DNA of 64,000 bases from Thiospirochaeta perfilievii (GTDB taxonomy: Bacteria; Spirochaetota; Spirochaetia; DSM-2461): NCBI RefSeq assembly GCF_008329945.1, contig NZ_CP035807.1, positions 3,224,001 through 3,288,000 of the forward strand, written 5' to 3'. Of this stretch, positions 23,883 through 48,275 are shown piece after piece. The translations under genes and the position numbers were made by a program. Below the pieces are notes generated by a model. The model was not told where the DNA came from, searched no databases, and was given only the letters and a program-made list of their open reading frames with translations. Position 1 is the stretch's first letter. Each line of letters starts with the position of its first letter.

Positions 23883-26800
23883 ATGATATCAAAGATTTAC
23901 TATTTTATAGTAGCAACTCTAATTATAGCAACTTTAGTTGCGTGTGAACTTTTTACATCAGGTTATGGGGAGAAGGTTGACTTAAGTGAACCTAGTATCT
24001 CAATAAGCGATCCTGTTAATGTGGAGTATAAGGGTGGAACTTTTACTCTAAAGGGTGTTGCCTCTGATGATACTAGTATAAAAGAAGTTGTTGTTGAATT
24101 TAAAAGCCCTGTAACTAATGATACAAAAACTAGAACTGCAACTTTAAGCGATAATAACTGGTATTTAGATATTGATAGTGATGACTCCTCCATATTTAAA
24201 GATGGAGAAGTTGAATTTACTGTTACTGCTATAGACTCTGTTGATAAAAAGAGTAGCAAAAATATTATAGTTTATCTAGATAACACCCTTCCTACTGTTT
24301 TAGTTGAATCCCCAAATTCCCAGGATAAAGATATAATTAATGGTATTCTTGATGTTATAGGATCAGCCAAAGACGCAAGTCTAGAGAAGCTTGAAGTTTA
24401 CATTGTTTCGTCAGATGATCCTACAAAAAGATATTTAGGTGTAACAGAGGGAACTTCTAGTTGGAAAGCAACATTTAATACAGAGAAATTAGAAATAGGT
24501 CTATTATCAAGTCAGACATACTATTTGGAAGTAATCGCCTATGATGTTGCAGGTAATCAGAGTAGTTACTTCTATTATAATGATGACTTATTTAGTGAAG
24601 AGATGACTCAAATAAAATCAGACCTTGGGATAAATAGTAGACCTATTGATATGTTAGCAGATATTAATAATATCGATCTTTTTGAATCGATACAGAGGTC
24701 AGATAGCTTAGCTGATAGGCTTAATTTTAATATATACCAAGATAGAGATAGACCAGAGATTATTTTGTCTAGTGATTGGGATCTTTCTTCTCCAGATAAT
24801 CTTAAATCATTTACAAATAGTGTAAATCTATCAGCTCAAGTTAAAGATGACGATGGTATTAAGACCATCGTTTTATCTGTTTATAAAAAGAGTGATAATT
24901 CACTTGTTAGACAGGGGACAATTAAACCTCTTGGATCTAGGAGCTATAATTTAGATGTAATACTAGACTCGGTTAATTGGTCTGGGTTTACTATGACCCC
25001 TGATCTTAGTAGTGGAATACTTCCAGAGGACTCTTACTATTTTACCCTAACTGTAACTGATATAGAGGGTGCATTTTCAGGTGTTGCAGATTTACCTAAC
25101 CCGGCAAATTTTGGAATAGACAGAAATAACCCAGAAGTAAAAATATTATCCTCATTATCAAATAAATATTACAATTCAAATGTAGATGTTATTATTGAAG
25201 CGAAGGATAATGTAGGTGTAACTAAGGTTGATCTATATATTAACGATGTAGATGATAAAACCCCTCTAAGTGCAATAAAACAAGATGATGGAAATTGGAA
25301 ATATACAGTAAAAACTTTAGACTATATAACAGAAGAAGATTTAGATGTAAACCTAAGTATAAAAGTTGTTGCCTCCGATGCTAGTGGAAAAACCGACACT
25401 GAGAGTATGTCTATTTACTTAGATATATTACCTCCAGTGTTAGAAGATTCAAAGATAACTATGCCAGCTAGTTTAAATCAAACTGTGGAAATAGAAGTTA
25501 CTCCTGTAGATAAAAACCTTGATAGTGTCGAATATAATTTAGATAATGAAGAAGATTGGAAACCAGTTAGTAAGGTTGATGGTTCTACTAGTATAATTAC
25601 TCTGTTAACAACAGATTATGCGGATGGAAATCATACTCTTAACTTAAAGGCAATTGATACTGCTGGGAATATTACTGAGCTTTCTAAAATTATTACCATA
25701 GATCAAGATTCTGATAAACCTGTAATTACATTTAAAACACCAGATGAAACAAATGATATCAATAGTTTTTCAGGCGCTGTTACTATTTTGGCTGAACTTA
25801 AAGATGATGATGCTATTGATGAAGAAAGTATCGTTTTAAAAATTGATGATGAAAAAGTTATTGCTTCAGAATATATAAAGCAGAATGTTGGGGGAGTTGT
25901 TACATTAAAATATACTCCAACATTTGATGATGATGGTGATCATAGTGTTTCAGTATTTGTAGCAGATAAAAAAGATATTGGTGTTGTGAAGGATGTAACA
26001 AAAAATATAGATTTTGTAATCGACTCTCGTGGTCCTACTATCAATAATATAAAAGTAGATTCAGAAGTTATCTCTAGTTTAATGTATAAAAAATCAGACT
26101 TTACTCTTTCGGGTAATGCAGCTGACTTAAAGGATGTTTCAAAGATTACAATAAAAGCTACATTTGGTGATTCGGAACCAGTTATTTATGTTATACCTTT
26201 TGATGCTGTTACTCCAAATGTTACATGGATTCAAATTATCAATGTGGATGGTAATGTTAATGATAGTGAAGAAAAGCCTCTTACAGTAACAATAGAAGCA
26301 ATAGATGCAGCTGGTAATTCAAGCGGTATTGTTACTAAAAATTTAATTATTGATAAAATAAAACCTGTATTAGATAGTGTATTATCATCGAATATTGAGA
26401 ATTTAAATGGAATAGAGACTATATCTGGAGGAGCTAGTGATGATCATTTATCATCAGTTAAAATAGCTTATATCGGTAAGAATGATGGTAAAACATCTTG
26501 GCTTAATATTGAAGGTTCACCGTATTCCTGGAAATATTATCTTGATACTAAAAAAATTGAAGATGGAAATTCCACTTTTTATGTACAAGCTACAGATCTT
26601 TCAGGAAATATTTCTAATAAAGAATACACTATAAATATAGATCAGCTAAGCGATAAACCTCAGTTTATATTTGATAAACCTATTATTAGCGGGGGAAATG
26701 AGACTACAAACTTGTTTGGATCGTCTGCTTCTGTTTCAGGATCAGTAACAGATGATGACGGTATTGATAGAGGTGAAATAAATATTTATCTATATGATTA

Positions 26801-27887
26801 TGATAATGTATTACTATACACAACAAATTTTATCCCAACTCCAGGTGGTTCTGATAAATCCATACCTTGGGAATTTGATCTATCTTCCTTGTCTCAGGGG
26901 ATTTATTATATTCAAGTTGAGGCTAAAGATGATATAGATTATAAATTGAATGGAGATGTAGTCTCTTCTAATATTTCAAATAAGAATATTTTTGCTATCG
27001 ACTTTGGTGCACCAACTTTAGATATATCTTCCCCTTTAAATGCCACTACAGAAATAACCTATCTAAATAGTCAAATGATTCTAGCTGGTAATGTAAAAGA
27101 TGGTTTAGGAGTTAAAACATTAACTTATCAATTAGGTTCTTTAGACAAAGTTACTATATTTACAGATAAGCAGTACTTAGACTACAACTGGTCTAAAACA
27201 TTAACTTTAGATGAACTTAAATTAGCAGGAACAAGTTTTAGTATTAACTTAGAAGCTACAGATATTACAGGAAAAGTTATTAAATCTACTATGCCTGTTT
27301 TTATTGATGAATCAGGACCAATACTTACAGTTACTACACCACTTAATAATTCTATTAATGAATCAAGTCCTATATCTTTAGAAGGTACTATTCTGGATCT
27401 AGGTTCCGGGTTTAGTTATCCAGTGGATGGTGATTTAAGTTCCTTAAATTATGATTTAGCTTATAGTTTAAATAGTGGAGTAGATGTGCCTATTTCTTTA
27501 ACAGAGGGTGATACTAAGTGGCTAAAAGATTTAGAACTTACTACAGAAGGAACATACAATCTTAAATTTAAATCTAAGGATAGAATAGGGAATGTAAAGA
27601 ATAGCTCAAATATAACATTCTATTATGATAAATCTAAACCTGATTTTACAGAAGTTGACTCTACTTACAGCGAAACTGAAGTTTTAACTAATAGTAGTGT
27701 TAATTTTGGTGGACACTTATCTGATAGTAATGGGCTATTAGCTTTTAATGTTAAAGTAAATACTGAAGATGAAATCAATTTATTAAGTTCTGTAGAGTCT
27801 AATGGGACTTGGTCATATACCCTTCCAAAGGTCGATGGGATTATAGTGTTACATTTACAGCAACAGATAAAGCAAATAGATCGGTAG
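23883..27887 (+). CDS. Giant Ig-like repeat lipoprotein, N-terminal frame (frameshifted)
   Basis: The first 1,334 codons of a giant surface protein. It begins with a lipoprotein signal peptide whose lipobox is LVAC (Cys21), so the mature protein is lipid-anchored. The rest is a string of divergent Ig-like/cadherin-like domains of about 95-110 residues. Most end in ATDxxGN-type strands, and linkers have forms such as QDSDKPVITF or FVIDSRGPTI. The last meaningful residues are near TLPKVDG. Beyond codon 1318 the frame gives a short nonsense tail, while the Ig-like sequence continues in the -1 frame (next entry). One extra G in the GGG at 27837-27839 would join both into about 4,778 codons. Adhesion or polymer binding is inferred from architecture. 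Confidence 0.8.
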   Translation: MISKIYYFIVATLIIATLVACELFTSGYGEKVDLSEPSISISDPVNVEYKGGTFTLKGVASDDTSIKEVVVEFKSPVTNDTKTRTATLSDNNWYLDIDSDDSSIFKDGEVEFTVTAIDSVDKKSSKNIIVYLDNTLPTVLVESPNSQDKDIINGILDVIGSAKDASLEKLEVYIVSSDDPTKRYLGVTEGTSSWKATFNTEKLEIGLLSSQTYYLEVIAYDVAGNQSSYFYYNDDLFSEEMTQIKSDLGINSRPIDMLADINNIDLFESIQRSDSLADRLNFNIYQDRDRPEIILSSDWDLSSPDNLKSFTNSVNLSAQVKDDDGIKTIVLSVYKKSDNSLVRQGTIKPLGSRSYNLDVILDSVNWSGFTMTPDLSSGILPEDSYYFTLTVTDIEGAFSGVADLPNPANFGIDRNNPEVKILSSLSNKYYNSNVDVIIEAKDNVGVTKVDLYINDVDDKTPLSAIKQDDGNWKYTVKTLDYITEEDLDVNLSIKVVASDASGKTDTESMSIYLDILPPVLEDSKITMPASLNQTVEIEVTPVDKNLDSVEYNLDNEEDWKPVSKVDGSTSIITLLTTDYADGNHTLNLKAIDTAGNITELSKIITIDQDSDKPVITFKTPDETNDINSFSGAVTILAELKDDDAIDEESIVLKIDDEKVIASEYIKQNVGGVVTLKYTPTFDDDGDHSVSVFVADKKDIGVVKDVTKNIDFVIDSRGPTINNIKVDSEVISSLMYKKSDFTLSGNAADLKDVSKITIKATFGDSEPVIYVIPFDAVTPNVTWIQIINVDGNVNDSEEKPLTVTIEAIDAAGNSSGIVTKNLIIDKIKPVLDSVLSSNIENLNGIETISGGASDDHLSSVKIAYIGKNDGKTSWLNIEGSPYSWKYYLDTKKIEDGNSTFYVQATDLSGNISNKEYTINIDQLSDKPQFIFDKPIISGGNETTNLFGSSASVSGSVTDDDGIDRGEINIYLYDYDNVLLYTTNFIPTPGGSDKSIPWEFDLSSLSQGIYYIQVEAKDDIDYKLNGDVVSSNISNKNIFAIDFGAPTLDISSPLNATTEITYLNSQMILAGNVKDGLGVKTLTYQLGSLDKVTIFTDKQYLDYNWSKTLTLDELKLAGTSFSINLEATDITGKVIKSTMPVFIDESGPILTVTTPLNNSINESSPISLEGTILDLGSGFSYPVDGDLSSLNYDLAYSLNSGVDVPISLTEGDTKWLKDLELTTEGTYNLKFKSKDRIGNVKNSSNITFYYDKSKPDFTEVDSTYSETEVLTNSSVNFGGHLSDSNGLLAFNVKVNTEDEINLLSSVESNGTWSYTLPKVDGIIVLHLQQQIKQIDR

Positions 27888-30800
27888 AGATAAATAGGAA
27901 GATAAAGATTGATGCGACTCTTCCAGAATTAAATGTTAAAAGTATAGTTTCAGATGTTTCAGGTGTTGATGATGGTAAGGAAGTGCTTTCAGGTAATTAT
28001 AAATTTGAAGGTAGTTCTTCTGATACAGGTTCAAATGTTAAATCGGTATATTATAGTTTAAATGGAAATGAATACCTGTTAGCAACTGGTACAACAATAT
28101 GGAATGTAACAGTAGATACCACGTCTTTACCTGAGGGTGTAAATAATATAAAATTTAAAGCTACAGACAACTCAGGAAACTTTGTTGAGAGTAGTGATAT
28201 AGAGTTTGTTGTAGACCAAAGTGCCCCAATACTAAGTGAAACATTTATAGGTTCATCTCAAAAGAAAACAAACATCTCTTATACTTTAGAAGGAACAATT
28301 TCCGATACCTATGGAATAGCTAGCTTAACAATAAATGGTAATGCTCCAACAACAAATAGTGGTGGATCATGGACATATAGTGTAACAACTCCAGTAGAGG
28401 GAGAAGAAACTTATACGGTAGTTGCTACAGATAACTCTGGTAGAAAAACAAGTTTAACAAGATCCGTATTATATGATGTAACAGCTCCTGAAGTAGATGG
28501 AATTGATGCTATAACTGGTTTTGTAAGTGGTAGTTCATATACATTTAAAGGAGTGGCTTCCGATGATAATGGAGTTACTAACTCTGGGATAAATAAAGTT
28601 GAGTACCAAGTAACAGCAAAAGATGTTGCAGTTGTAGAAGAGGATTGGGTAGCCGCTAGTGGAAGTACTAGCTGGAATGGAACCTTTGCTCTTAGTATCT
28701 CAGAAGGTGATAAGACAGTACATGTAAGGGTAACTGATGAAGCAGGAAATGTAAGTGTAATATCAACAAAAGATTTTGTTTTTGATCAGGGAGTACCAAG
28801 TCTAGCTGTAACAACAAACCCTGTTTCCATAACTAAAGGTTTCTTTACAATATCAGGAACAGCTAGTGATAGTAATGGATTAAAAGATAATAAAATAAAC
28901 CTAAATGTAGCAGGAACAGACTACCTAATAACAGTAACAGATGGATCTTGGACATATACAGGGGATTTATCTGGTAAAACTGACGGTTCATACGACATAA
29001 CAGTACTTGCCACAGATGTAGCAGATAGACCAAGTGTAGAGCTTGTAAAATCTATTCAGGTTGATAAGGTAGCTCCACTAGTAGAAGTAGGAACAGTGTC
29101 ACCTCTTGTAAATACAGATGAAGTAAATGGAACAATAGAGTTTAGTGCAACAGCTTCAGATCCTAATGGATTAGAGGGTGTTCGTTATTGGATACTCCCA
29201 TCAACAGATGAAGCCCCAAGTTGGGATACTACTAATTATACTCTTTTTGGAGCAGCACCATACTCCGTAACAGGAATAGATACAACAGATACAAGTAAGT
29301 TCACAGATGGGAATAGCTACAAAATTTGGGTATTAGCTCGGGATAAGGCTGGTAATGATAATATCGATTCAAAATTAATAACAGTAAACCAGGCCTCAGA
29401 TATCCCAACCGTTGACTTTACTAATATTGAAAAAATAACATCAGAGATAGCAATAGATTCAACTCCATCAGCAACAAAAAATCTATTTCTATCAACAGTT
29501 AAAATAATAGGAACAGTTGCAGATGATGATTCTGTAGATGCTTCTACAATCCAAGTAAGTTTAAATGGAGCAGCTCCAACAGGTGTTACTACAGGTAACA
29601 GTTCATCAAATGGTTCTTTAGTCTACTGGGATAATACATTTGCTACTGGATTAGTAGATGGAAATAATACTTTAGTTGTAACAGCCACAGATACAAATGG
29701 GAAAGCTTTTACCTCTGATACGTATAACTTTTTTGTAGATAAATCGAATCCAAGTTTAACAATAACAGACAATAAACCTGCAGAAGGTAGTAGTGTAAAA
29801 AGTGTTATAACACTTTCAGGAACAGTCTCAGATGCACACTTAGAAAGTGTATTAGTAACTCTAGAAGGTGGAAATGTAACAGAGGCAACAGTAAGTGGTA
29901 GTAGTTGGAATCTAGTTTCAAACGCATCAGGGTTTGATGCAGAAGGAACTAAAACTATTACAGTAACTGCAACAGATAAATTTGGTAAAACAACCGAGAA
30001 AGAGATATCTGTTTTATATGATAAAACAGCACCAACCTTAGCTCCTGGAGAAATCGACTCAGATGTATCAGGTGTAGCCGAAGGTCTAGAAGTGATATCT
30101 GGAGAGTATATATTTACTGGAACTGCAAGTGATACGAACTCTTTAGTAAGCAAAGTAGAGTACAGTTTAAATGGTGCAGCCTATGAATTAGTAACAGGTA
30201 CAAATAGTTGGAATGTAACAGTAGATACCACGTCTTTATCTGAGGGTGTAAATAATATAAAATTTAAAGCTACAGACAACTCAGGAAACTTTGTTGAGAG
30301 TAGTGATATAGAGTTTGTAGTAGACCAAAGTGCCCCAATGCTAAGTGAAACCTTTATAGGTTCATCTCAAAAGAAAACAAACAGCTCTTATACTTTAGAA
30401 GGAACAATTTCCGATACCTATGGAATAGCTAGCTTAAAAATAAATGGAAATGCTCCAACAACAAATAGTAGTGGATCATGGACATATAGTGTAACAGCTC
30501 CAGTAGAGGGAGAAGAAACTTATACAGTAGTTGCTACAGATAACTCTGGTAGAAAAACAAGTTTAACAAGATCCGTATTATATGATGTAACAGCTCCTGA
30601 AGTAGATGGAATAGATGCTATAACTGGTTTTGTAAGTGGTAGTTCATATACATTTAAAGGAGTGGCTTCCGATGATAATGGAGATACTAACTCTGGGATA
30701 AATAAAGTTGAGTACCAAGTAACAGCAAAAGATGTTGCAGTTGTAGAAGAGGATTGGGTAGCCGCTAGTGGAAGTACTAGCTGGAATGGAACCTTTGCTC

Positions 30801-33800
30801 TTAACATCTTAGAAGGTGATAAGACAGTACATGTAAGGGTAACTGATGAAGCAGGAAATGTAAGTGTAATATCAACAAAAGATTTTGTTTTTGATCAGGG
30901 AGTACCAAGTCTAGCTGTAGCAACAAACCCTGTTTCCATAACTAAAGGTACCTTTACAATAGCAGGAACAGCTAGTGATAGTAATGGATTAAAAGATAAT
31001 AAAATAAACCTAAATGTAGCAGGAACAGACAACCTAATAACAGTAACAGATGGATCTTGGACATATACAGGGGATTTATCTGGTAAAACTGACGGTTCAT
31101 ACGACATAACAGTACTTGCCACAGATGTAGCAGATAGACCAAGTGTAGAGCTTGTAAAATCTATTCAGGTAGATAAGGTAGCTCCACTAGTAGAAGTAGG
31201 AACAGTGTCACCTCTTGTAAATACAGATGAAGTAAATGGAACAATAGAGTTTAGTGCAACAGCTTCAGATCCTAATGGATTAGAGGGTGTTCGTTATTGG
31301 ATACTCCCATCAACAGATGAAGCCCCAAGTTGGGATACTACTAATTATACTCTTTTTGGAGCAGCACCATACTCCGTAACAGGAATAGATACAACAGATA
31401 CAAGTAAGTTTACAGATGGGAATAGCTACAAAATTTGGGTATTAGCTCGGGATAAGGCTGGTAATGATAAAGCAGATTCTAAAGAGATAACAGTAAACCA
31501 GGCCTCAGATATCCCAACCGTTGACTTTACTAATATTGAAAAAATAACATCAGAGATAGCAATAGATTCAACTCCATCAGCAACAAAAAATCTATTTCTA
31601 TCAACAGTTAAAATAATAGGAACAGTTGCAGATGATGATTCTGTAGATGCTTCTACAATCCAAGTAAGTTTAAATGGAGCAGCTCCAACAGGTGTTACTA
31701 CAGGTAACAGTTCATCAAATGGTTCTTTAGTCTACTGGGATAATACATTTGCTACTGGATTAGTAGATGGAAATAATACTTTAGTTGTAACAGCCACAGA
31801 TACAAATGGGAAAGCTTTTACCTCTGATACGTATAACTTTTTTGTAGATAAATCGAATCCAAGTTTAACAATAACAGACAATAAACCTGCAGAAGGTAGT
31901 AGTGTAAAAAGTGTTATAACACTTTCAGGAACAGTCTCTGATGCACACTTAGATAGTGTTTTAGTAACTCTAGAAGGTGGAAATGTAACAGAGGCAACAG
32001 TAACTGGTAGTAGTTGGAATCTAGTTTCAAACGCATCAGGGTTTGATGCAGAAGGAACTAAAACTATTACAGTAACTGCAACAGATAAATTTGGTAAAAC
32101 AACCGAGAAAGAGATATCTGTTTTATATGATAAAACAGCTCCAACCTTAACTCCTGGAGAAATAGACTCTGAGGTATCAGGTGTAGCCGAAGGTAGAGAA
32201 GTGATATCTGGAGAGTATATATTTACTGGAACTGCAAGTGATACGAACTCTTTAGTAAGCAAAGTAGAGTACAGTTTAAATGGTGCAGCTTATGAATTAG
32301 TAACAGGTACAAATAGTTGGAATGTAACAGTAGATACCACGTCTTTAACTGAGGGTGTAAATAATATAAGTTTTAAAGCTATAGACAACTCAGGAAACTT
32401 TGTTGAGAGTGGTGATATAGAGTTTGTAGTAGACCAAAGTGCCCCAATACTAAGTGAAACCTTTATAGGTTCATCTCAAAAGAAAACAAACAGCTCTTAT
32501 ACTTTAGAAGGAACAATTTCCGATACCTATGGAATAGCTAGCTTAACAATAAATGGAAATGCTCCAACAACAAATAGTGGTGGATCATGGACATATAGTG
32601 TAACAACTCCAGTGGAGGGCGAAGAAACTTATACAGTAGTTGCTACAGATAACTCTGGTAGAAAAACAAGTTTAACAAGATCCGTATTATATGATGTAAC
32701 AGCTCCTGAAGTAGATGGAATAGATGCTATAACTGGTTTTGTAAGTGGTAGTTCATATACATTTAAAGGAGTGGCTTCCGATGATAATGGAGTTACTAAC
32801 TCTGGGATAAATAAAGTTGAGTACCAAGTAACAGCAAAAGATGTTGCAGTTGTAGAAGAGGATTGGGTAGCCGCTAGTGGAAGTACTAGCTGGAATGGAA
32901 CCTTTGCTCTTAGTATCTCCGAAGGTGATAAGACAGTACATGTAAGGGTAACTGATGAAGCAGGAAATGTAAGTGTAATATCAACAAAAGATTTTGTTTT
33001 TGATCAGGGAGTACCAAGTCTAGCTGTAACAACAAACCCTGTTTCCATAACTAAAGGTTCCTTTACAATATCAGGAACAGCTAGTGATAGTAATGGATTA
33101 AAAGATAATAAAATAAACCTAAATGTAGCAGGAACAGACTACCTAATAACAGTAACAGATGGATCTTGGACATATACAGGGGATTTATCTGGTAAAACTG
33201 ACGGTTCATACGACATAACAGTACTTGCCACAGATGTAGCAGATAGACCAAGTGTAGAGCTTGTAAAATCTATTCAGGTTGATAAGGTAGCTCCACTAGT
33301 AGAAGTAGGAACAGTGTCACCTCTTGTAAATACAGATGAAGTAAATGGAACAATAGAGTTTAGTGCAACAGCTTCAGATCCTAATGGATTAGAGGGTGTT
33401 CGTTATTGGATACTCCCATCAACAGATGAAGCCCCAAGTTGGGATACTACTAATTATACTCTTTTTGGAGCAGCACCATACTCCGTAACAGGAATAGATA
33501 CAACAGATACAAGTAAGTTTACAGATGGGAATAGCTACAAAATTTGGGTATTAGCTCGGGATAAGGCTGGTAATGATAAAGCAGATTCTAAAGAGATAAC
33601 AGTAAACCAGGCCTCAGATATCCCAACCGTTGACTTTACTAATATTGAAAAAATAACATCAGAGATAGCAATAGATTCAACTCCATCAGCAACAAAAAAT
33701 CTATTTCTATCAACAGTTAAAATAATAGGAACAGTTGCAGATGATGATTCTGTAGATGCTTCTACAATCCAAGTAAGTTTAAATGGTGGCTCTTATGTTT

Positions 33801-36800
33801 CTGTTGATTCTGGAACAACATCAGATAATGGTTCATTAGTTAGTTGGAGTCATACTTTTTCTAGTTCAGACTTAATTGAGGGAGACAATGAATTTACAGT
33901 GAAAGTTTCTGATATAAATACTTTAGCTAAAACTTTAACTTCCGAAGTTTATCATTTCTTTGTTGATAAATCTGACCCTGTAGTTAATGTGTCTGAACCA
34001 ATACAAAGTGCTTATGTTAAAGGTTCAGCAAGAACCAGTGGAGAAGCATATGATGGTACATCTTTAGCATCATTTACAATTACTGCAAATAATGCATCAA
34101 CTACATCAGTAATAAATGTAGATAATGCAAATACCCAATGGGGATTAACAACCACAGAAAACACTGGTGAGTTTTATTGGGATACTACTAATGAAAAATA
34201 TATCTGGGATTTTGCACTCGAACAGTTACCAGATGAATATGAAAATAGACCAATAACAATTTCTTATAATGCAGTCGATTCATTTGATAAAAAGAGCGTT
34301 GTAGATAGATCAATTACTATTGATTCTGTATCTCCAGATGTCGATATTCAATATCCTGCACTAGATTCAGTTGTTACTGGATCAGTAACAATTAAAGGGA
34401 TAACTACAGATGAAAAGATGAAAACTGTTGAAATTAAACTTGGAAACAGTGGTTCTTGGGAGTTATTAGATGGTACATATAACTGGAGTAAAACTATTAA
34501 TACTGTTGCCACTTCTGTTTATACTGATGGAAATGATCAAGGTGATGGTACATGGGAATATCCTGTACAAATTAGAGCTACAGATTCTGCAGGTAATGTT
34601 ACTATTGAAAATTCATATCAATTTTATATTAGTCCAGACCTTGATAAACCAACTGTTAGTATTACATCCCCTTCAAATGGAGCAAAACTAGGTGGAACAA
34701 TATTACTAATTGGAACAGCCACAGATAATGAAGCTGTTAGTAAGGTTTATATTAGAGCAGATGTAAATGGAGATGGGGATTTTGTAGACTCATATGATCT
34801 AGATAATAATCCAGGAACTTCTCATATTTTTGATAATGAGTCTTCGTGGACAGAAATTACAAACTTTAGTAACAGTGTATGGCAACAGGAGATAAATAGT
34901 GATGGTCTTCTTTACAGTGAAAATTCAAATATTACAGGTGCAACTGGTGTAATAAATATTCAATTCAAAGCTGTAGATCTAAAGGGTGTAGAGAGTCTGT
35001 TGGTTACAAGAAATATTGATATTGACAGTACATTCCCTGAAATTACTCAATTTGAAGTACTTGATGATAATTCTAATCCTATAACAGATGTAAAAGGTAC
35101 TTTTGATATCAAAGTTTCTACAACAGATAATGAAGGTGGAATAACAGCTATAGATATTAGTTATAATGGTGGAATTAGCTATGAATCTGTATTAAGTACA
35201 GGTTCTCCTAATGTTACTGAAACGTTAACAATCCCTGTAGATTCTATAAATGAACTAGGTTATACAAATAGTAGTGATATAATTAACGTTAGATTAAAAG
35301 TAACAGATACAACAGGTTATCAGTCTTTTAAAAGTCTTCAATTAAGTATTGATAATATTAATCCTACAGCATCTTACACTGGCCGAGTTGATGATATTGG
35401 AACTGCAGGGGGAACAGGGGTTGAGAATCGAGTAACTGTTTCAGGTATTTATGAAGATACTGGTCTTGTAAGTAGTTTTGGTAGAATTGAAGCATACTTA
35501 TCCCAGGATGGAGTAATTATTGATCCAAATACTGGAGAAACAAGTAGTAATACCACTATAGATTTTAATGATGGCAATGGAGCTGTTGTTTATCCAGATA
35601 ATAATAAAGATCTTATCACAATTGATTGGGATGCTGCTGTCCTAGAGAGAGGGAAAGATGACTCTGGAGATGGAGATGGATATTACGAATATATTTCAAC
35701 AGCTTCTGGTGTATATAACTGGTCTGCAGAGTTTGATACTAGTTCTATTGATACAGACTTAGGAGCCGTAGAACTTCACTATGTTGTATATGATAAAGCA
35801 GGAAACTCTAGTCACTATGTAGAAATAATGTTGATTGTTGGTTCGGACTTAGATGATAGTGGAGTAATTGAGGAGTCAGAGCAGATGGCATACCCTCAAT
35901 CCTTCCAAGCAAGAAGTGGATTACTTTATGTTGAATTATTTGGTGGTAGTAAAGCAAACTATTATCTAGAAATATCAGACTCTTCAGGTGTGGTTAAAAC
36001 AACAGATAAAAATACAACTGAAACAACTTTTAATACTTCAGCCTATGATGGTGAAACAGAGTTCATTATTAGGGTTTACGACTATGTTGATGGTGTGAAT
36101 GATACTTTGAAATTAACTAAAAATTTAGAAGTTGATATGAAGGGAGCTGATACAATTCCTCCTACAATTACAGTTAGTGATTTAACAACTAATTCTGTTG
36201 TTGATGGTCATTTAGATGTGGGTGATTTTAGTTCTAATCCTGCAACAAACACCAATGATAAGGATATTAGTGGAGAGCTTCAATTTATTGGAGTAGCAGC
36301 TGATGATTCAAGAATAAAAGATATAACATTAAGCATAACGGGAGAAAGTGATGTAGTAATTGCACAGTGGGTTGAAGGTCTATTTAAATCTGTAGATCCA
36401 AATACAACAATTGTTAGCCAGGAATTACATTGGAAAGATGGTCATACTGTTAATTTTACATATAACTGGGATACTGAAACTTTAACAAATGTTGCTGATG
36501 AAAATAGAGTTGTTGAATTTACAGTTAATGATTTTATTGCAGACCACACTGTAAGTGATATTGACCAGTTTGATGTAGTTCCATATATAACTTCTATTAC
36601 TAGAAATGGTTTTAATACTAATAGATCTAAACTAGGATTCTACCCAGTAAGAAGAGAAGAGACTGGTTTAATTATAGATGGGTTTAACCTAAGAAGTACA
36701 ACAATACCTGGTAGTGTTACTATTGATAATATTTCCATTTCATCAACAATTAGTGGAAGTAGTGATAGTTCAATATTAATTGATATACCAACAACAGCAA

Positions 36801-38218: not shown

Positions 38219-39495
38219 TGGGTAGGTTTACATTGAAAGGAAAAGTAATAATAGCAGGTCTTATATTATCATTAGGCCTGTTTTTAACATTTTTAATAGT
38301 CATAAATAACAGAAAAAAAATAGAAGGTGAAATTAATTTAGTAATTAATTCCTCAAATAGTAAATACGATAATTTTAGTGAAAATATTTTGAAATCTTAT
38401 TCATATAAGAGTGATAAGAGGGTTAAAATTACCACGTCGGTTAAAAATGAATCAAATTATTTAGGATATATAAATAAAAGTTTTTTATTAGAAAACAGTG
38501 AGGATATTTTTTATACAGTTTTTAGCTCTCAGTTATATAATAGTTTAAGGGAGAAATCAGGGCTTAGATACTTCGATAATTATATAACGGAAGATCTTGT
38601 AAAACCATTTTACACCTTAAGTATGGATTCAAGTAGTTATTTTTATATACCTATAACTTGGTCTCCTTGGGGTATATATTATAATAAGGAGATCTTTAAA
38701 GAGTACAATTTGAAAGAACCTTCTACCTTAGATGAGTTAGATACTCTTTGTGCAAAGATGCTAGATTACAATATTACTCCTTTTTCTATGCTACAAGATT
38801 TAAAATGGCCAATAACCGCATGGTTTGATTACCTTAATATTAGATTAAACGGTATTCAGTTTCATAAAAACTTATTAAATGGATTGATTGAATTTACAGA
38901 TCAAAGAGTCTTACAAACTTATGAAAGATTATATCTATTGATAAATAAAGGATATTTCTATTTCGATGATTCGATTGAGTGGACAGAAATGTTAAAACAG
39001 ATTGATAGCAGAGAAACAGCTATGGTTTTAGGAGGAGCATTTTATTACGAAAATGCATCAGAAAAATTAAAGAAGAATTTAGGTTGGTTTCCTTTCCCTC
39101 TAGTTGATGTTGGAGAAAGTTATAATGAGATAATATCATCTTCTGGTTTTGTTGGCAAAACTGTTGCAGGTGTAAATGAAGATGTTTTCGAAGACTTCTA
39201 TAAATATGCTCTATCAGAAGGTGGACAAAATATTGTAGTAAATTATTCAAATTTATATCCTATTAACGAAAAATCTTTAAATAAACTAAATCGAGAAGAT
39301 TTAAATAAAGCATATACTCATATAAAAAATTCTACATCATTAACATCTTCCTTTGAAAGAAATAGTAATGAAACAATTATACAACCTCTTAAATGGTCTA
39401 TTTCTTCATTATTTAACATTAGTGATAAAGAAGAAATAAAAGTAATTTTAAGCAAACTAGAAGAAATTCGTATCTCAAGTCTAAAATTGGAATAA
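38218..39495 (+). CDS. Membrane-anchored ABC-type sugar-binding-protein-like protein (orphan)
   Basis: A 425-residue protein whose ATG overlaps the stop of the giant gene (TAATG), so it is translationally coupled. An N-terminal membrane segment (about residues 9-28) lacks a lipobox Cys and looks like an uncleaved anchor or signal peptide. The rest resembles family 1 extracellular solute-binding proteins: IPITWSPWGIYYNKEIFKEY, PSTLDELDTLCAKMLD, AMVLGGAFYY, NLGWFPFPLV. Such proteins bind sugars or oligosaccharides for ABC importers. No permease or ATPase gene is near, so it may capture or sense ligands held by the giant surface protein. That role is inference; the fold assignment is reasonably good. 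Confidence 0.75.
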   Translation: MGRFTLKGKVIIAGLILSLGLFLTFLIVINNRKKIEGEINLVINSSNSKYDNFSENILKSYSYKSDKRVKITTSVKNESNYLGYINKSFLLENSEDIFYTVFSSQLYNSLREKSGLRYFDNYITEDLVKPFYTLSMDSSSYFYIPITWSPWGIYYNKEIFKEYNLKEPSTLDELDTLCAKMLDYNITPFSMLQDLKWPITAWFDYLNIRLNGIQFHKNLLNGLIEFTDQRVLQTYERLYLLINKGYFYFDDSIEWTEMLKQIDSRETAMVLGGAFYYENASEKLKKNLGWFPFPLVDVGESYNEIISSSGFVGKTVAGVNEDVFEDFYKYALSEGGQNIVVNYSNLYPINEKSLNKLNREDLNKAYTHIKNSTSLTSSFERNSNETIIQPLKWSISSLFNISDKEEIKVILSKLEEIRISSLKLE

Positions 39496-39563
39496 TATAG
39501 ATAATATTAAAGAGATGTTTAAAATATATCGTTAATTAAAGTATAGTCTAAATACAATATTAC

Positions 39564-39579
39564 CAAATATTAATATTTG
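39564..39579. promoter_or_regulatory. 16-bp perfect palindrome CAAATATTAATATTTG
   Basis: Located directly upstream of the -35 element of the following promoter. It could be an operator (for example for the LacI-type regulator downstream) or a weak terminator stem; it has no T run. Confidence 0.4.
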
Positions 39580-39608
39580 TTGTAATCCTGTAATAAATAG
39601 GTTAAAAT
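39580..39608 (+). promoter_or_regulatory. Promoter of the 1,967-residue Ig/beta-barrel protein gene
   Basis: TTGTAA (39580-39585), 17 nt, TAAAAT (39603-39608); the start codon follows at 39642 with GAGG 6 nt upstream. Confidence 0.55.
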
Positions 39609-39641
39609 AGTACAAAATTTACACTTTTAATGAGGTTCTTA

Positions 39642-42600
39642 ATGAAGAAATATATCTATATATATCTACTGGTTATTTTTCTACCAGCAATTGGTTTTTC
39701 CCTAGGACAGACAGAGGAGTCCGATTATAAACAGGTCTCTGGAAAGGATAACTGGGAGTATGAAGTTCCTCTAGAAGGGAAGGAGCCTGGAGAGTATAAT
39801 CTTCTAATAAGAGCTAAAGACAAGGCAAATAATGAGGTGTTTACTGGCCCCTTTGATATCTTTGTTGATCCAGAGTCCGATCTACCACTAGTTTCAATTA
39901 CAAATCCATCATCCTTTATGAGGGTTGGTGGTAATCTTAATATTGTAGGTACTGCTAGGGATGATGATAGTGTAGATAAAGTTTTAATAAAAGTTAATGA
40001 TGGTGAGTTTGAAGAAGTTGTAGGTACACAGTTCTGGAGCTACTTTTTAAGTGCAGATAAAGTAGAGGATGGACAGCATACAATAACTGCAAAAGCTGTG
40101 GATATTAATGGTCTAGAAGGTAGGGAGGTCTCTGTAACCTATAATCAGGACACCTTAAAACCTACAAATACAATAGAGAACTACAGTAATGGAGTTATTT
40201 TTTCAGGTAAGGTTAATATTAAAGGTAAGGTTGTTGATGCCAATGGAATAAAAAATATATCCCTTAGTACCGATGACCAAAAATCATATAACTCTATAAA
40301 GTTTGAGAAGGATAAAACCAGCGAGTTTTATTTTTTTGATATAGATATAGATACTAGAAAATTAGAAGATGGGCCTAATATCTACTGGATTAAAAGTGAT
40401 GATAAAACAGGTTCAACAGCCTATACTGCATTTCTCTTTTTTGTCGATAATATTGGACCAGAAATAACCATTATTGACCCTGTAGAGAAGGATATACTAA
40501 ATGGTAGGGTCTCTTTAAGTGGTAAAATTAGTGATAAGATTGGAATAAAATCCTTTAAATATATATATAACGAAGTAGAGAAAGAGATAACATTAAAAGC
40601 TGGGAACCCCTATTGGACTACAAATATAGATTTTTCAGCTGAGAATAAAATCGATCCTGAAATAGTTTTAATTACAGAGGATACATCTGGAAACTCCACA
40701 GAGTTAAAGTACAAATTTAATATAGATAGAGAGAGTGATAAACCTCTACTTAATATAACATCCCCTCTATTGGATACAACATATAAAGAGGATCTAATAA
40801 TTGAGGGGTATGTTACAGATGATGACTATGTAAAGGGGATATCCTATACATTAGATGGGGATGAACCAGTTGTAATAGAGACATTTAACTCTTTCTCTAA
40901 AACATTAGAAAATCTGTCATCTGGATCCCACACAGTTAAACTTAGGGCTATAGATAGTAACGATCTCTATGGAGATGAGATTGAAATACCCTTTGTTATA
41001 GATGGAAAATCCCCTGAGATTTTATTAGAAAACCTAAAAAAAGGTGAGAGTGAAATACCCTTTACACCTGGAATAAATGTGACTACAGATGGTGGTTATA
41101 GTATAAATGGAAAAGTTTTATCTGGTAATAACATAGTCTCTTTAAAGTATAAGATTGGTAGGGGGGATTTTATTGAGCTTCCCCTTAAAAAAAGTGACAA
41201 TATTGGAGAGACAAAATTTGCTATAAACATTGATAGTAGTTTTTTTTATGGAGTTCTGGATTTTACCATATATGCTAAAGATGAGTTTGGGAATGAAGTC
41301 TCTAAAGAGTCTAATATCTATGTAAAAAACTACTCAGTAGTAAATGAAAATTGGGGTCTATCCTACGCCTCTCTTCCTGGAAGAAATAATATTCTATTAA
41401 GGGAAAATAAACCATTTACTATCTATTTTAATGGGCCAGATATTAAGTCGGTAGAGTCAGAACCAAAAAGCGATGTTATTAAAATAAATAATGATACTCA
41501 AGTTATTACAATATCAAGTGGAAAAGAGGGCAGAGTAGAGGATTTAAAGTTTATAGTTAATACTGATAAGGGTGTATATGAAACTACTAAGTTTAACTTT
41601 AGTGTAGATGTTACAAACCCTATAATAGTGCTAGACAATCCAAAGTTAAATTCTAATCAATCTACAGCCTTAGCTGTTTCTGGTTCTATTAAGGAGACTC
41701 TATTAAGTAAGTTAGAGTATAGGTACTCAAATGAAGAGGGATTTAAGGATATTAAGTTTTCAGGAACCACTGGAGATTATAGTTTTAGAACTACTCTAGA
41801 TATTCCTGTAGTAAGTAGTGAATCACTATCAATAGAGTTACAAGCAACGGATAATTTTGGAAACAGCTCTACAATTAGTAGATCCTTTGGTATAAATGAA
41901 AATAAGTTTGTTCAGACTCTTCTTAAGGAGGAGTTAGATTTAAATAGTGGGAAATCCTCTGATAAACCTGTTTTAGAGGTTAACTACCCACAAAATAACG
42001 AGGTATTTTTTGATAAGCCTCTGCTCTCTGGGTTTACAAGGGATGATGACTCTATTAAGTCTATTAAAGTAAGTGATGGTTTAGAGGGAGGTAAAGAGAT
42101 AACTGTAGCAACAAATGGTTTTTTTGATATTCCTCTTACAGAGTTTGGTGAGGGGTCTAAAACCCTCTATGTTACAGCAATAGATATTAATGGGGTCGAG
42201 TCTAAATCAAAAAAAATAAGTTATACATTTCAGGCTAAAAAGAGTTCTATAAATATAAAAAGATATAGAGAAGAAGCTTATGAAGGGGATTATAACCTTG
42301 GTGTTTTAATTAATAGAGAACCATCTGCATCTTTGATTGGAAGTGTTCTAGAGGATATTAATGGAGACTTAAGTTATAGAATAAATGATGACCCTTTAAA
42401 GAAAATTGAGATTATAGATGGCAGTTTTACCATTAACCTACCAAAGGGCCTTCCATGGGGAAGAAATGAGGTTCTCCTTACTTATACCGATATGTATGGT
42501 AGAGAGGAGAGCTTCAAATCCTTCTTTTTTATTGTTGATAAGATAAATATAAATGGTATAAAGGATGAGTTAGGTCTATATTTTTCCGATGAAAGATTAT

Positions 42601-45545
42601 CTAGTGAGTATATTGATCTAGGTTCAAATAAGCCTTTAATTGGTTATTTTAATGGTAGAAGTATCAAAGATATAACTTTAGAAGCAGAGAAAGGCACAGT
42701 TCCTGATTTTATAGAAGTAAAAAATAGAGATAATACTATTATTATAGACTCTAAGGGAAATGGTATATCTAAGGGTGTTCGAGTTGTTGTTACAACTGTA
42801 GATAATGATATATTTTATTCAAACTTTTTTAAGTTTATTAAAGATGATTTTAGTCCGGAGATAGAGTTAGAAACCCTTGATAATCAATTTATTAGGGGTA
42901 GCATAAATTTAATTGGTAGGATAAAAGACAACCTAAAAGTAAGTAGTTTAAGTTACTCTATAAATAGTGGAATTACATGGCAGGATCTTGAATTAGCTAT
43001 ACCAAAGGAGCCTGTTAAGAAGGAGAAGTACACAGCTACCTCCCCATTAGATAATATAAAAGTTGTAAAAGAGGAACCAAAAGAGTTTATCTTTACCCAA
43101 GAGGTAGATTTTAGTAATAGGGCTGATGGTGGTTATAGCATCTGGATTAAAGGGGTTGATTTAAGTGGCAGGGAAGTTGTAAAAAAAATATCCTTTATTA
43201 AAGATAATACAAATCCCGAAATCTCCCTATTTATACCGGGGAACGATGAGATAAATGGTGTAATTACATTAATTGGGAAGTCAAAGGATAATATCGAGTT
43301 AGACAGTATATCATACTCTAAGGATGAAAAGAGTTTTACCCCAGTAGTTGCTTCTGGTGTTTTTAACTTTGACATCGATTTTGGAGAGGATGAAGTATTT
43401 CCTGAAACTTTTGTAATAAGAGCTCTTGATAAAGCTGGTAATTATAAGGATATATACCCTCTATTTAACATTAATAGGGAGGGGGATAAGCCTGTAGTTC
43501 AAATTCAGACACCTATAAATAAAGAGATAATAAGGAATGACTTTATTATTTCAGGTATGGTTTTTGATGATGATGGAGTAGGGGAGATTCTCTACTCGCT
43601 AGATGGTGGAGATCTCTATCCTATAGCTAAAAATGAGAATAACTTCTCGGTAAATATTCCCTTAGAGAGTATTACAAATAATGAACATACAATAACTGTA
43701 AAGGCTGTAGATGTATTAGGGGTAGAGAGTGATGTTGTAACTTCTACTTTCTGGGTCTCTAAGGAGGAGCCAACTAGTAACCTTATTCTACCAAGCATTG
43801 ATGATACAAAAAATGGTACAATAAAGCTTGTTGGAACTAGTTTTGATGAAAATGGAATAGACTCAGTTTATGTTTCTACCGATAATGGTGTTTCATATCA
43901 AAAAGCCCAGGGTAAGGATAACTGGACATATAATTTTAATACAAAAAATATAAAAGATGGTACATACTCCCTATTTGTTAAAGCAATTGATAAATTAAAA
44001 ACAGAAGGGTTTTACTCTACCCTTATTAATATTGATAATACCCCTCCTGAGCTTGTGATAATCCAACCGGTTGATGGTGATATCCTATCAGATAAAATTG
44101 TATTTAGTGGAAGAAGTAGCGATAATATTGGCCTTAAACGTGTAGATTATAAGATCTATACCCATACCCAGGCAGAAAGTAATAATATAGTTGTAGGGGA
44201 AGGAAACCTTACTAACAATGGTATATTTAATATTGATATTCCATTAGAAGGATTTGAGCCTGGTGAGTATAATATAGAGCTAATAGCCTATGATAAAGCT
44301 GATAATAGATCTATTTCTACCCGTAATTTTACAGTAACTCCTTCTGATAATGCAGGAGATATTGAGCTTCTATTTCCACAACCCGGCTCTAATCAGACAG
44401 GTGTTTTTGAGATATCTGGAAAAATTCTTGGTTTTAAACCTGTAGATTTTGTAGAGTGTTTTATTGATGGGGAGTTATTTAGTGAGATTAAAGTTAATGA
44501 ATTTAACTACTTTAATCTTAAAGTTAATACTAGAAGTTTTAAAGATGGAGAGCATACTATATCTTTAAAAGGAACCCTTGAAGATGGTCAGGTTTACGAT
44601 ACTCCAAACTACACCTTTAATATTCAAAATAGTGGTGCTTGGTTGGAAATAACAAATATGAAAACCGGAGAGAATATATCTGGAAGGCCATTTTTAACTG
44701 GAAAAGCAGGATATATTGGGGATGAGAGTATTACTCCTATCCTAGTAGAAGTAAGTCTTGATAATGGACAAATATTTCATCCTGCAGTTGGTCAGTCCTC
44801 TTGGGAATTTAGAGTTGAAACATGGCAGTATGAAGACGGATTAACTCCAATACTTGTACGATCTAAATACTCTAATGGAGAGAGTAAAACAAGTAGAGTT
44901 GCTGTTAATATTGATAGAACTGACCCTACGGTCTCTGTTATAGAAGACCTTGAAATGGGTAGGTTTAACGATAGTATTAAAATGTCTGGTACAGCTTTTG
45001 ATTCCAATGGTTTAACTGATATCTCTGTTATATTAAGGGATGGATCTAAGTCAAACTATGAGGTACCAGGTCTTTTCCAAGGAATGTTTATAGATATTGA
45101 GACAGGATATGGAAAGCTTTATGGAACCGGTATAGGATTCACATTTTTTGACGACAATGTAAAACTTCAATTTACATATGGAGAGACAAGAACATCTTCT
45201 ATTGATGCTAGGATTAAGGGAGCATTTTATGGCGGTAAGTTGTTGGCTAATATCTATACATTAGAGTACGGGGCATTCTTAGGTCCAGATTTTAGCCCAT
45301 TCTCTTCATCTCTGGCCTTTGGGGCAAGTTTTACTAATAAAACCCTATCTGTAAGTGATATGGATTCAATAATGTGGTACTCAGCTGTTGTAAGTCAATT
45401 AGAGTTTATTAAAGTTAAATTTGACTCAAAATATATCAGTTCTCTATCCCTATATTTAGACTTTGAAGCTACACTTATAAGTTCTGAGAATACTGGTGGT
45501 TTTTTCCCTAGGTTAGGAATAGGTTCTAGGATAACACTGTTCTAG
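39642..45545 (+). CDS. Ig-like repeat protein with C-terminal outer-membrane beta-barrel
   Basis: A 1,967-residue secreted protein. The ATG at 39642 is chosen over 39630 because GAGG (39632-39635) is spaced 6 nt from it and the signal peptide then begins MKKYIYIYLL. After the signal peptide the chain enters directly in the second half of an Ig-like domain (QVSGKDNWEYEVPLEGK). About 15 divergent Ig-like domains follow, many with SDLP or SDKP linkers and DDD-containing first strands, as in the giant neighbour. The last 165 residues or so look like an amphipathic barrel (GYGKLYGTGIGFTFFDD, GAFYGGKLLANIYTLEYGAF) and end IGSRITLF with terminal Phe. It probably anchors in the outer membrane and displays the repeats outward or into the periplasm. 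Confidence 0.8.
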   Translation: MKKYIYIYLLVIFLPAIGFSLGQTEESDYKQVSGKDNWEYEVPLEGKEPGEYNLLIRAKDKANNEVFTGPFDIFVDPESDLPLVSITNPSSFMRVGGNLNIVGTARDDDSVDKVLIKVNDGEFEEVVGTQFWSYFLSADKVEDGQHTITAKAVDINGLEGREVSVTYNQDTLKPTNTIENYSNGVIFSGKVNIKGKVVDANGIKNISLSTDDQKSYNSIKFEKDKTSEFYFFDIDIDTRKLEDGPNIYWIKSDDKTGSTAYTAFLFFVDNIGPEITIIDPVEKDILNGRVSLSGKISDKIGIKSFKYIYNEVEKEITLKAGNPYWTTNIDFSAENKIDPEIVLITEDTSGNSTELKYKFNIDRESDKPLLNITSPLLDTTYKEDLIIEGYVTDDDYVKGISYTLDGDEPVVIETFNSFSKTLENLSSGSHTVKLRAIDSNDLYGDEIEIPFVIDGKSPEILLENLKKGESEIPFTPGINVTTDGGYSINGKVLSGNNIVSLKYKIGRGDFIELPLKKSDNIGETKFAINIDSSFFYGVLDFTIYAKDEFGNEVSKESNIYVKNYSVVNENWGLSYASLPGRNNILLRENKPFTIYFNGPDIKSVESEPKSDVIKINNDTQVITISSGKEGRVEDLKFIVNTDKGVYETTKFNFSVDVTNPIIVLDNPKLNSNQSTALAVSGSIKETLLSKLEYRYSNEEGFKDIKFSGTTGDYSFRTTLDIPVVSSESLSIELQATDNFGNSSTISRSFGINENKFVQTLLKEELDLNSGKSSDKPVLEVNYPQNNEVFFDKPLLSGFTRDDDSIKSIKVSDGLEGGKEITVATNGFFDIPLTEFGEGSKTLYVTAIDINGVESKSKKISYTFQAKKSSINIKRYREEAYEGDYNLGVLINREPSASLIGSVLEDINGDLSYRINDDPLKKIEIIDGSFTINLPKGLPWGRNEVLLTYTDMYGREESFKSFFFIVDKININGIKDELGLYFSDERLSSEYIDLGSNKPLIGYFNGRSIKDITLEAEKGTVPDFIEVKNRDNTIIIDSKGNGISKGVRVVVTTVDNDIFYSNFFKFIKDDFSPEIELETLDNQFIRGSINLIGRIKDNLKVSSLSYSINSGITWQDLELAIPKEPVKKEKYTATSPLDNIKVVKEEPKEFIFTQEVDFSNRADGGYSIWIKGVDLSGREVVKKISFIKDNTNPEISLFIPGNDEINGVITLIGKSKDNIELDSISYSKDEKSFTPVVASGVFNFDIDFGEDEVFPETFVIRALDKAGNYKDIYPLFNINREGDKPVVQIQTPINKEIIRNDFIISGMVFDDDGVGEILYSLDGGDLYPIAKNENNFSVNIPLESITNNEHTITVKAVDVLGVESDVVTSTFWVSKEEPTSNLILPSIDDTKNGTIKLVGTSFDENGIDSVYVSTDNGVSYQKAQGKDNWTYNFNTKNIKDGTYSLFVKAIDKLKTEGFYSTLINIDNTPPELVIIQPVDGDILSDKIVFSGRSSDNIGLKRVDYKIYTHTQAESNNIVVGEGNLTNNGIFNIDIPLEGFEPGEYNIELIAYDKADNRSISTRNFTVTPSDNAGDIELLFPQPGSNQTGVFEISGKILGFKPVDFVECFIDGELFSEIKVNEFNYFNLKVNTRSFKDGEHTISLKGTLEDGQVYDTPNYTFNIQNSGAWLEITNMKTGENISGRPFLTGKAGYIGDESITPILVEVSLDNGQIFHPAVGQSSWEFRVETWQYEDGLTPILVRSKYSNGESKTSRVAVNIDRTDPTVSVIEDLEMGRFNDSIKMSGTAFDSNGLTDISVILRDGSKSNYEVPGLFQGMFIDIETGYGKLYGTGIGFTFFDDNVKLQFTYGETRTSSIDARIKGAFYGGKLLANIYTLEYGAFLGPDFSPFSSSLAFGASFTNKTLSVSDMDSIMWYSAVVSQLEFIKVKFDSKYISSLSLYLDFEATLISSENTGGFFPRLGIGSRITLF

Positions 45546-45596
45546 TAGATACTTTATTTTTTTATACTAATTCTATAAAATAGCTTAGAGGTTTAT

Positions 45597-46603
45597 ATGG
45601 CAGTAACAATTAATGATGTAGCAAAAATGGCAGGTGTTTCCCATACAACGGTATCATGGGTAATACACAACGATCCTAGAATTACTCAAAAGACAAAGGA
45701 TAAGGTAAATAAAGCTATTGAAAAGCTAAATTATCATCCTAATTACAATGCGAGAAGTCTTGTTAAGGGTAAAACCGATGCTATTGCTGTAGTTACAAGC
45801 TTTTTCTCAACATACTTTGAGTTAAGTGTATTAAGGGGTATAGAGACTGCCATGGGCAACTGTAAGAAAAATTACAACCTTAACCTATACTCCACATCAA
45901 ATAGGGAAGATGAAGTATTAAACGAGATTCTTTACGGAAGAAGAGCTGATGCAGTAATACTTTTAAGTGAATCTCCATCACAAAAAATAATTAATGATTA
46001 TAATGCAAAAAACATACCTCTTATTCTTGTAGAAAATTATCATGATGAACTTATATCTGTAAAGTCAAACAGTATTAAGGGGGTAAGGATGCTGCAGATT
46101 ATCTCTTTAGTATAGGTTTAAGTAAAATTGGAATAATTGTAGAGAATTTAACAGATGAAGATATTCCTGGTCTTAGTCAGGTTGAAAGAATGATAGGGTT
46201 TAAAAAGTCCTTTGAAGAGCACGGTTTAACTGTTAATGAAGATTTAGTATTTGAACTAAAACATTTTAGAATGGAAACAGGCCGTAATTTTGCAAGAAAG
46301 ATTGTTAATGAGAATATCGATATAGATGGAATTTTTTGCGCAGCAGGGGATAAGGTTGCACTAGGTCTAATAGATGAGCTTAAGAAGCTTGGCAAACGGA
46401 TACCAGAGGATTATGCTGTTGTTGGTTTTGATGATATTGATATAGCAGAGTTAGTATCACCACCTTTAACAACTATTAGACAGGATTTACACGGACTAGG
46501 TGAGACCGCATATAATTTAGCTGTTCAGGCTATAGAGAAGGAAGAAATTACCCAGAGACATATAGAGTTTGATACAACATTAATAGTTAGGGGAACAGCT
46601 TAA
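45597..46603 (+). pseudogene. LacI family transcriptional regulator, interrupted by a frameshift
   Basis: Residues 1-60 are a canonical LacI DNA-binding domain (VTINDVAKMAGVSHTTVSWVI) with the hinge region. The ligand-binding domain begins at DAIAVVTSFF. The first frame ends at a stop at 46113-46115 just after SNSIKG. The ligand-binding domain continues in another frame (KDAADYLFSIGLSKIGIIV, later PEDYAVVGFDDIDIAELVSP and TTIRQDL) to the TAA at 46601-46603. One extra G in the GGGGG at 46079-46083 restores a single frame of about 335 codons. It probably regulates the coupled glycosidase-like gene and perhaps the Ig-protein genes. A sequencing error rather than a true pseudogene is quite possible. 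Confidence 0.85.
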
Positions 46604-47514
46604 TGATAGGTTTAAAGATATATAGCGTCCCAAAAAACATTGAGGATTTTTTTGAGAAAATTAAGAGTATTAATGTTGATACTCTATTTATATCCAAGGA
46701 AGTATACTCTTCTAAGGAGTTTGTTTTTACGTTAAAAATTAGGAAAATAACTTTTTACTGTATATTCCAAGTATTTTATAATCCTAGCTATCTTAAAGTT
46801 AACCCCTCTGCTTACTCAATAACAGAGAGGGGAGAGAAGGCAATTGATGAGTGGGTACACTTTGTTTGTCCAAGTGATAATAAGTATAAAGAGTACTTAA
46901 TAGGTGAGGTAGCTTATATAACAGAACAGATAAAACCTACAGGAATAAGTTTAGATTTTATAAGGCAGTTTATCTTTTGGGAAAAAGTTCACGATGTCAG
47001 TTCTGAAAGACTTATAAAGAGTTGTAAATGTCCAAGATGTAGGGATAAATCCCCATCTAAGGAGATTACAAACACTGTTAAACTATTTTCATCTTTTATA
47101 AAAAAGAGCCAACCAGATTGTATTATCGGCCTACACAGTGTGCCTTGGAAAGAGGGGGAGTTTAATAACGGCTTATTAGAAATTGCAGGACAGGATTTAA
47201 ATAAATTAGGGAGTTATGTAGATTTTATATCTCCTATGTGTTATTCCCATATGCTAAAAAAAGAGCCTAACTGGATTAACCAAGTTGTAAAGGATCATAA
47301 AAACCGGTCACAAATAAGTGTAATCCCAGCAGTACAGGTTAAAGAGTGTTATTTATCAAATAAACTCAATAAAAGTGAGTTAAAAGAGATAATAATAGAG
47401 TCTATTAAAAAACCTTCTGGAGGGATTATTTTATGGAGTTGGGATTACATAGTGGATAGTGAAATATATAATTGGTTAAACGTAGAGTTCAGAGACCTCT
47501 TTTTCGATATTTGA
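46603..47514 (+). CDS. TIM-barrel glycoside-hydrolase-like protein
   Basis: A 303-residue cytoplasmic protein whose ATG overlaps the LacI stop codon by one base (TAATG). It has no signal peptide. The segments WVHFVCPSDNKYKEYLIGEV, then KPTGISLDFIRQFIFWE, VDFISPMCYSHML and GGIILWSWDYI follow the strand-end pattern of putative glycoside-hydrolase-like TIM barrels, in which a conserved (L/S)D(F/Y)(I/V)R motif carries the active-site Asp. The CKCPRCRD segment adds a possible metal-binding Cys pair. Substrate is unknown; coupling to a LacI regulator suggests sugar or oligosaccharide metabolism. The 3' end overlaps the converging PilZ gene by 39 nt. Confidence 0.55.
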   Translation: MIGLKIYSVPKNIEDFFEKIKSINVDTLFISKEVYSSKEFVFTLKIRKITFYCIFQVFYNPSYLKVNPSAYSITERGEKAIDEWVHFVCPSDNKYKEYLIGEVAYITEQIKPTGISLDFIRQFIFWEKVHDVSSERLIKSCKCPRCRDKSPSKEITNTVKLFSSFIKKSQPDCIIGLHSVPWKEGEFNNGLLEIAGQDLNKLGSYVDFISPMCYSHMLKKEPNWINQVVKDHKNRSQISVIPAVQVKECYLSNKLNKSELKEIIIESIKKPSGGIILWSWDYIVDSEIYNWLNVEFRDLFFDI

Positions 47515-48252: not shown

Positions 48253-48275
48253 AACTAATTGTAACAACTCCTTTT

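Follow-up and report, generated by a model that had tools for sequence, protein, structure and literature searches.

What would a spirochaete build from a giant immunoglobulin (Ig)-repeat lipoprotein, a solute-binding-like protein and an Ig-repeat outer-membrane barrel protein encoded one after another? The three genes lie on the plus strand of the 64,000-nucleotide stretch of DNA analysed here (the window), and a first-pass annotation had proposed that they form a polymer-capture or adhesion apparatus with its own regulation.

Organisation of the locus and its three products

The order and coordinates of the three successive genes were confirmed. The giant gene (23883-38218, about 4,780 codons) is followed on the plus strand by the gene for a solute-binding protein (SBP)-like product of 425 aa (38218-39495), the Ig/barrel gene (39630-45545), a LacI-type regulator gene (45597-46603) and a gene for a 303-aa protein (46603-47514). 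The SBP-like gene is indeed coupled to the giant gene by TAATG, the TAA stop of the one and the ATG of the other having an A in common. The barrel protein comes to 1,967 aa when the second ATG (39642) is taken as its start. Promoter-like matches 5' of the giant gene and of the barrel gene exceed those in shuffled sequence, and we give them no weight because the region is very AT-rich. Further upstream, at 18592-20925, the window encodes a LacI-type periplasmic-binding domain fused to GGDEF, which is also found upstream of the module in the same-genus genome G001.

As assembled, the giant gene is not the single open frame that had been described. It consists of two overlapping open reading frames in different frames, 23883-27887 (1,334 aa) and 27809-38218, and the one-base break between them falls at about 27840, within a GGG run. 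The LacI-type gene is likewise assembled as two pieces, 45597-46115 and 46190-46603, and here the one-base break falls within a G5 run close to 46080. Since both breaks sit in G runs and G001 has both genes unbroken (3,938 aa for the giant and 335 aa for LacI), assembly error is the likelier explanation, and real mutations in the two genes are less likely.

The giant bears out its description as a lipid-anchored Ig-repeat protein. It carries a lipoprotein signal with the lipobox LVAC at residues 18-21 (recognised by pattern only), and about 38 Ig-type domains were detected in it with a profile made from repeats of the window itself. The lipobox, together with the N-terminal motif C(D/E)LF.PGLG..VD, is common to giants of several families. 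Between 27900 and 33800 lie nearly three tandem copies of a 2,109-bp unit (703 codons, 7 Ig domains each), whose DNA is mostly 95-100% identical; these units may reflect recent amplification or conversion, and their copy number may have been miscounted by the assembly. The last 560 residues (36536-38215) were modelled as an IPT/TIG-like domain followed by a seven-bladed beta-propeller (mean pLDDT 76). The closest folds to this propeller are CylK (Z 30) and lectins of Photorhabdus and Burkholderia (Z 26-28), at an identity of about 10%. Beyond weak TIG / Big_7 edges the propeller region matches no Pfam family, and it matches none in NCBIfam. Propeller folds are common and bind many things; the lectin-like fold of this one makes adhesion or polymer capture plausible.

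The barrel protein has a signal peptide, about 17 Ig domains by a profile from the window's own repeats, and the C-terminal outer-membrane barrel that had been predicted for it. In a structure model of the segment 44931-45542, residues 51-204 (45081-45542) form an eight-stranded OmpA-like barrel (mean pLDDT 82, most strands above 90) with OprF, NspA and OmpA as its closest folds (Z 14-15). Even-stranded barrels have both termini in the periplasm, so that eight strands predict a periplasmic location for the Ig rod of this protein rather than the surface exposure assumed earlier. Apart from weak TIG / Big_7 edges, the barrel end belongs to no Pfam family. A classical autotransporter (type Va) was considered for this protein and dropped, as that architecture requires 12 strands and the model has eight.

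The SBP-like protein scores above the curated cut-off of PF01547 (SBP_bac_1), with an E value of 1e-16; its N-terminus is a hydrophobic anchor and has no lipobox, in keeping with its description as a membrane-anchored solute-binding-like protein. Its closest matches are sugar-binding proteins, AcbH and NagB1/NagB2 among them, and it retains a motif found around residue 145 of permease-linked relatives. Proteins occupying the same slot in distant lineages, between or beside the giant and barrel genes, also have an N-terminal transmembrane (TM) segment and usually no lipobox. Six of 14 slot relatives match SBP_bac_1, and six far-diverged slot proteins compared with permease-linked SBPs gave an hhalign probability of 96.6% (E 7e-10). 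In the same-genus genome G002 the match is weak and visible to a sensitive profile only, and it is also weak in one further group of genomes. The slot protein of L105 was rejected as an SBP-like protein, being an aminopeptidase.

The first-pass annotation had named an ABC permease pair beside the SBP-like gene as one of two observations that would tell against its proposal. In the cases examined gene by gene, namely the window and the slot relatives in G004, G022 and G055, no such pair adjoins the SBP-like gene. The window's own genome has three ordinary SBP genes (L150-L152) that do adjoin permease pairs, as do those of G009 and G028. Another orphan arrangement was noticed in G001, where an SBP-like lipoprotein gene directly follows a gene for a two-TM protein and has no permease pair (L145, 2382-5501).

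Distribution of the genes across spirochaetes

We searched 199 Spirochaetia genomes, chosen with a completeness threshold of 90%, and found the barrel in 66, the giant C-terminus in 61 and both in 59 (Fisher p 6e-40, without correction for phylogeny). When a giant C-terminus is on the same contig as the barrel, the two lie within 15 kb of each other in 43 of 46 cases, and in many genomes with short giants the two genes overlap or are separated by about 35 bp or less. Of the 66 genomes, 65 have one copy of the barrel gene and G011 has two; giants number from one to five per genome. Barrel relatives also occur outside the class Spirochaetia in a survey of the phylum; in a scan of named genomes, 257 stretches encode barrel relatives, and the 80 that were kept are all labelled as spirochaetes except one labelled 'bacterium'. 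Synteny in related spirochaetes had been suggested as a check on the locus, and the genes do co-occur and stand together across many families. That the giant and the barrel protein would work together, as a core pair, is well supported by the linkage of their genes.

The complete genome G209:C1 illustrates the range of giants, with five propeller-ended open frames of 2,038 to 6,178 codons and one barrel gene.

The core consists of the giant and the barrel protein, and the SBP-like gene goes only with long giants. We divided giants into short (up to about 2,230 codons) and long (from about 2,470 codons), with the data already in view. In a census of flanks, some of them truncated where a contig ended, an SBP-like gene stood beside the giant or barrel gene clearly in 23 of 36 long-giant genomes, weakly in 5 and not in 8, versus none of 21 short-giant genomes (p 5e-7, with weak cases counted as absent and relatedness ignored). 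The association with length is not just a difference between families, because families f1 and f25 each contain both length classes. The neighbour is the giant gene in the window and in G004, G055, G140, G009, G018, G022, G102, G115, G173, G186, G093, G212 and others, and it is the barrel gene in G200 and L095/L114/L133. G004 and G009 keep the SBP-like gene with the giant gene and have the barrel gene elsewhere, which makes the giant the likelier partner of the SBP-like protein. A single origin of the slot genes was neither shown nor rejected by their tree (AU p 0.10). A role for the SBP-like protein as a partner of the core pair is moderately supported, and we consider it very probable, judging from the sequences, that the three genes form a recurrent module.

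The genes farther downstream behave differently from the module. The LacI-type gene and the 303-aa gene had been described as a coupled regulator and glycosidase-like pair; their TAATG junction at 46603 stands, but the LacI-type gene is split in the assembly and the glycosidase label rests on a sub-threshold similarity to DUF4015, a family of putative glycosyl hydrolases (E 0.0016, 18 bits against a 27-bit cut-off). The 303-aa protein also has no convincing relative in the PDB. Of two same-genus relatives, G001 has LacI after the barrel gene, G002 does not have it beside the barrel gene, and the 303-aa gene is absent from the locus in both. Since LacI is missing in the one and the 303-aa gene in both, we left LacI regulation out of the module, and the claim that the apparatus has its own regulation did not hold up. 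A PilZ-domain gene 3' of the barrel gene (47476-48267) recurs within the genus; in G059 a REC-GGDEF-PilZ relative directly follows the barrel gene (L054, 15586-17400); the PilZ gene was excluded from the module because its recurrence beside the barrel gene is limited to the genus and G059.

A proposed working of the module

Our best reading, to which we give a probability of about one half, is that the module makes up a stalk of the cell envelope that carries a binding head, together with an anchor in the outer membrane and a partner in the inner membrane. We prefer it because about 38 Ig domains make the giant far longer than the width of the periplasm, and because its end is a lectin-like propeller. 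We infer the membrane side of each part, and the target of the propeller, from predicted folds and signal sequences. How the work would be divided among the three proteins we propose only tentatively. The giant would be a lipid-anchored stalk, and the propeller at its end would be the head that binds carbohydrate or protein. The barrel protein, which has a single copy also in genomes with several giants, would be the outer-membrane anchor they have in common, and its rod of about 17 Ig domains would extend into the periplasm. The SBP-like protein would sit in the inner membrane, face the periplasm and work with the giant by holding, assembling or sensing it, rather than feed an ABC importer.

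The same parts could instead make a mechanical tether across the envelope, with all three proteins periplasmic and no function at the surface. The outer membrane would then be held by the barrel protein and the inner membrane by the TM-anchored protein; the giant, with its lipid anchor in a periplasmic leaflet, would bridge them or run along them. The eight-stranded barrel, which places its Ig rod in the periplasm, the N-terminal anchor that would make the SBP-like protein face the same compartment, and the linkage of the three genes are all consistent with such a tether. It is nevertheless rather unlikely, given the length of the giant, the sugar-binding lectins among the closest folds of its propeller, and the fact that spirochaete lipoproteins are often surface-exposed. 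We regard as still less probable that the module captures and imports a polymer, the giant and the barrel protein gathering polysaccharide and the SBP-like protein passing oligosaccharides to an ABC permease encoded elsewhere. The nearness of the window's SBP-like protein to AcbH and NagB1/NagB2, the retained motif around residue 145 and the nearby LacI gene point in this direction. Against import speak the absence of a permease pair beside the slot genes examined, the divergence of many slot relatives past Pfam recognition, the failure of the LacI and 303-aa genes to be conserved with the module, and a TM anchor in place of a lipobox or cleavable signal.

A further explanation grants that the giant and the barrel protein are a real pair and treats the SBP-like gene as unrelated to them, a neighbour that several lineages recruited or acquired by chance insertion. 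Its orientation and place do vary (on the same strand or convergent, after or before the giant, after the barrel gene), eight long-giant genomes have no SBP-like gene nearby, and the AU test leaves room for more than one origin of the slot genes. Yet the adjacency recurs across many families, in 23 to 28 of 36 long-giant genomes compared with none of the 21 short-giant genomes, and G004 and G009 have kept the SBP-like gene with the giant although their barrel gene lies elsewhere. We therefore judge chance neighbourhood to be quite improbable. The function named in the earlier proposal, adhesion or polymer capture, is plausible from the lectin-like fold of the propeller. A bolder formulation, which we hold to be possible but doubtful, is that of a new spirochaete envelope machine in which one Ig rod of the outer membrane would serve a single giant propeller-tipped stalk or several, and an orphan SBP fold, put to a new use, would act as the inner-membrane partner that the longest stalks alone require.

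Comparison with known systems

The first-pass annotation knew of no named system with this gene set, and our search of open-licence papers agrees, as it found no named giant Ig lipoprotein/barrel/propeller system in spirochaetes with these genes. TDE2699, from a proteomics table of Treponema denticola (PMC5643300), was considered as a counterpart and not used, as no tie to these genes was found. The individual folds are already known, and Ig-repeat envelope proteins are a known kind. The core pair is widespread in Spirochaetota, yet neither of its conserved ends has a Pfam family. The module also looks like a case in which a transport-type fold recurs in an apparently non-transport role, and it is a defined gene set amenable to a clear knockout test.

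Each product resembles a known protein and departs from it in a distinct way. The propeller of the giant shares its fold with PLL and PHL, the seven-bladed propeller lectins of Photorhabdus (Z 26-28), but this is a comparison of fold alone at 8-10% identity, and the propeller here is fused to a giant Ig stalk. The SBP-like protein has the fold of the family 1 ABC sugar-binding proteins AcbH and NagB1/NagB2, with partial sequence similarity, and differs from them in being TM-anchored and in having no adjacent permeases. The barrel protein agrees with outer-membrane proteins of the OmpA/OprF type in barrel fold and strand number; its periplasmic part, however, is N-terminal and made of Ig repeats, and a Pfam scan of the protein gave no OmpA match that would indicate the peptidoglycan-binding domain. 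Like OmpL47 and the Ig-like surface proteins LigA and LigB of Leptospira, it is a spirochaete envelope protein with Ig repeats. It just reaches the cut-off of the NCBIfam OmpL47-type domain (40.4 against 40) and falls far below the OmpL47 equivalog cut-off (32.6 bits against 250). What sets it apart from both OmpL47 and LigA/LigB is its C-terminal barrel and its partner, the giant.
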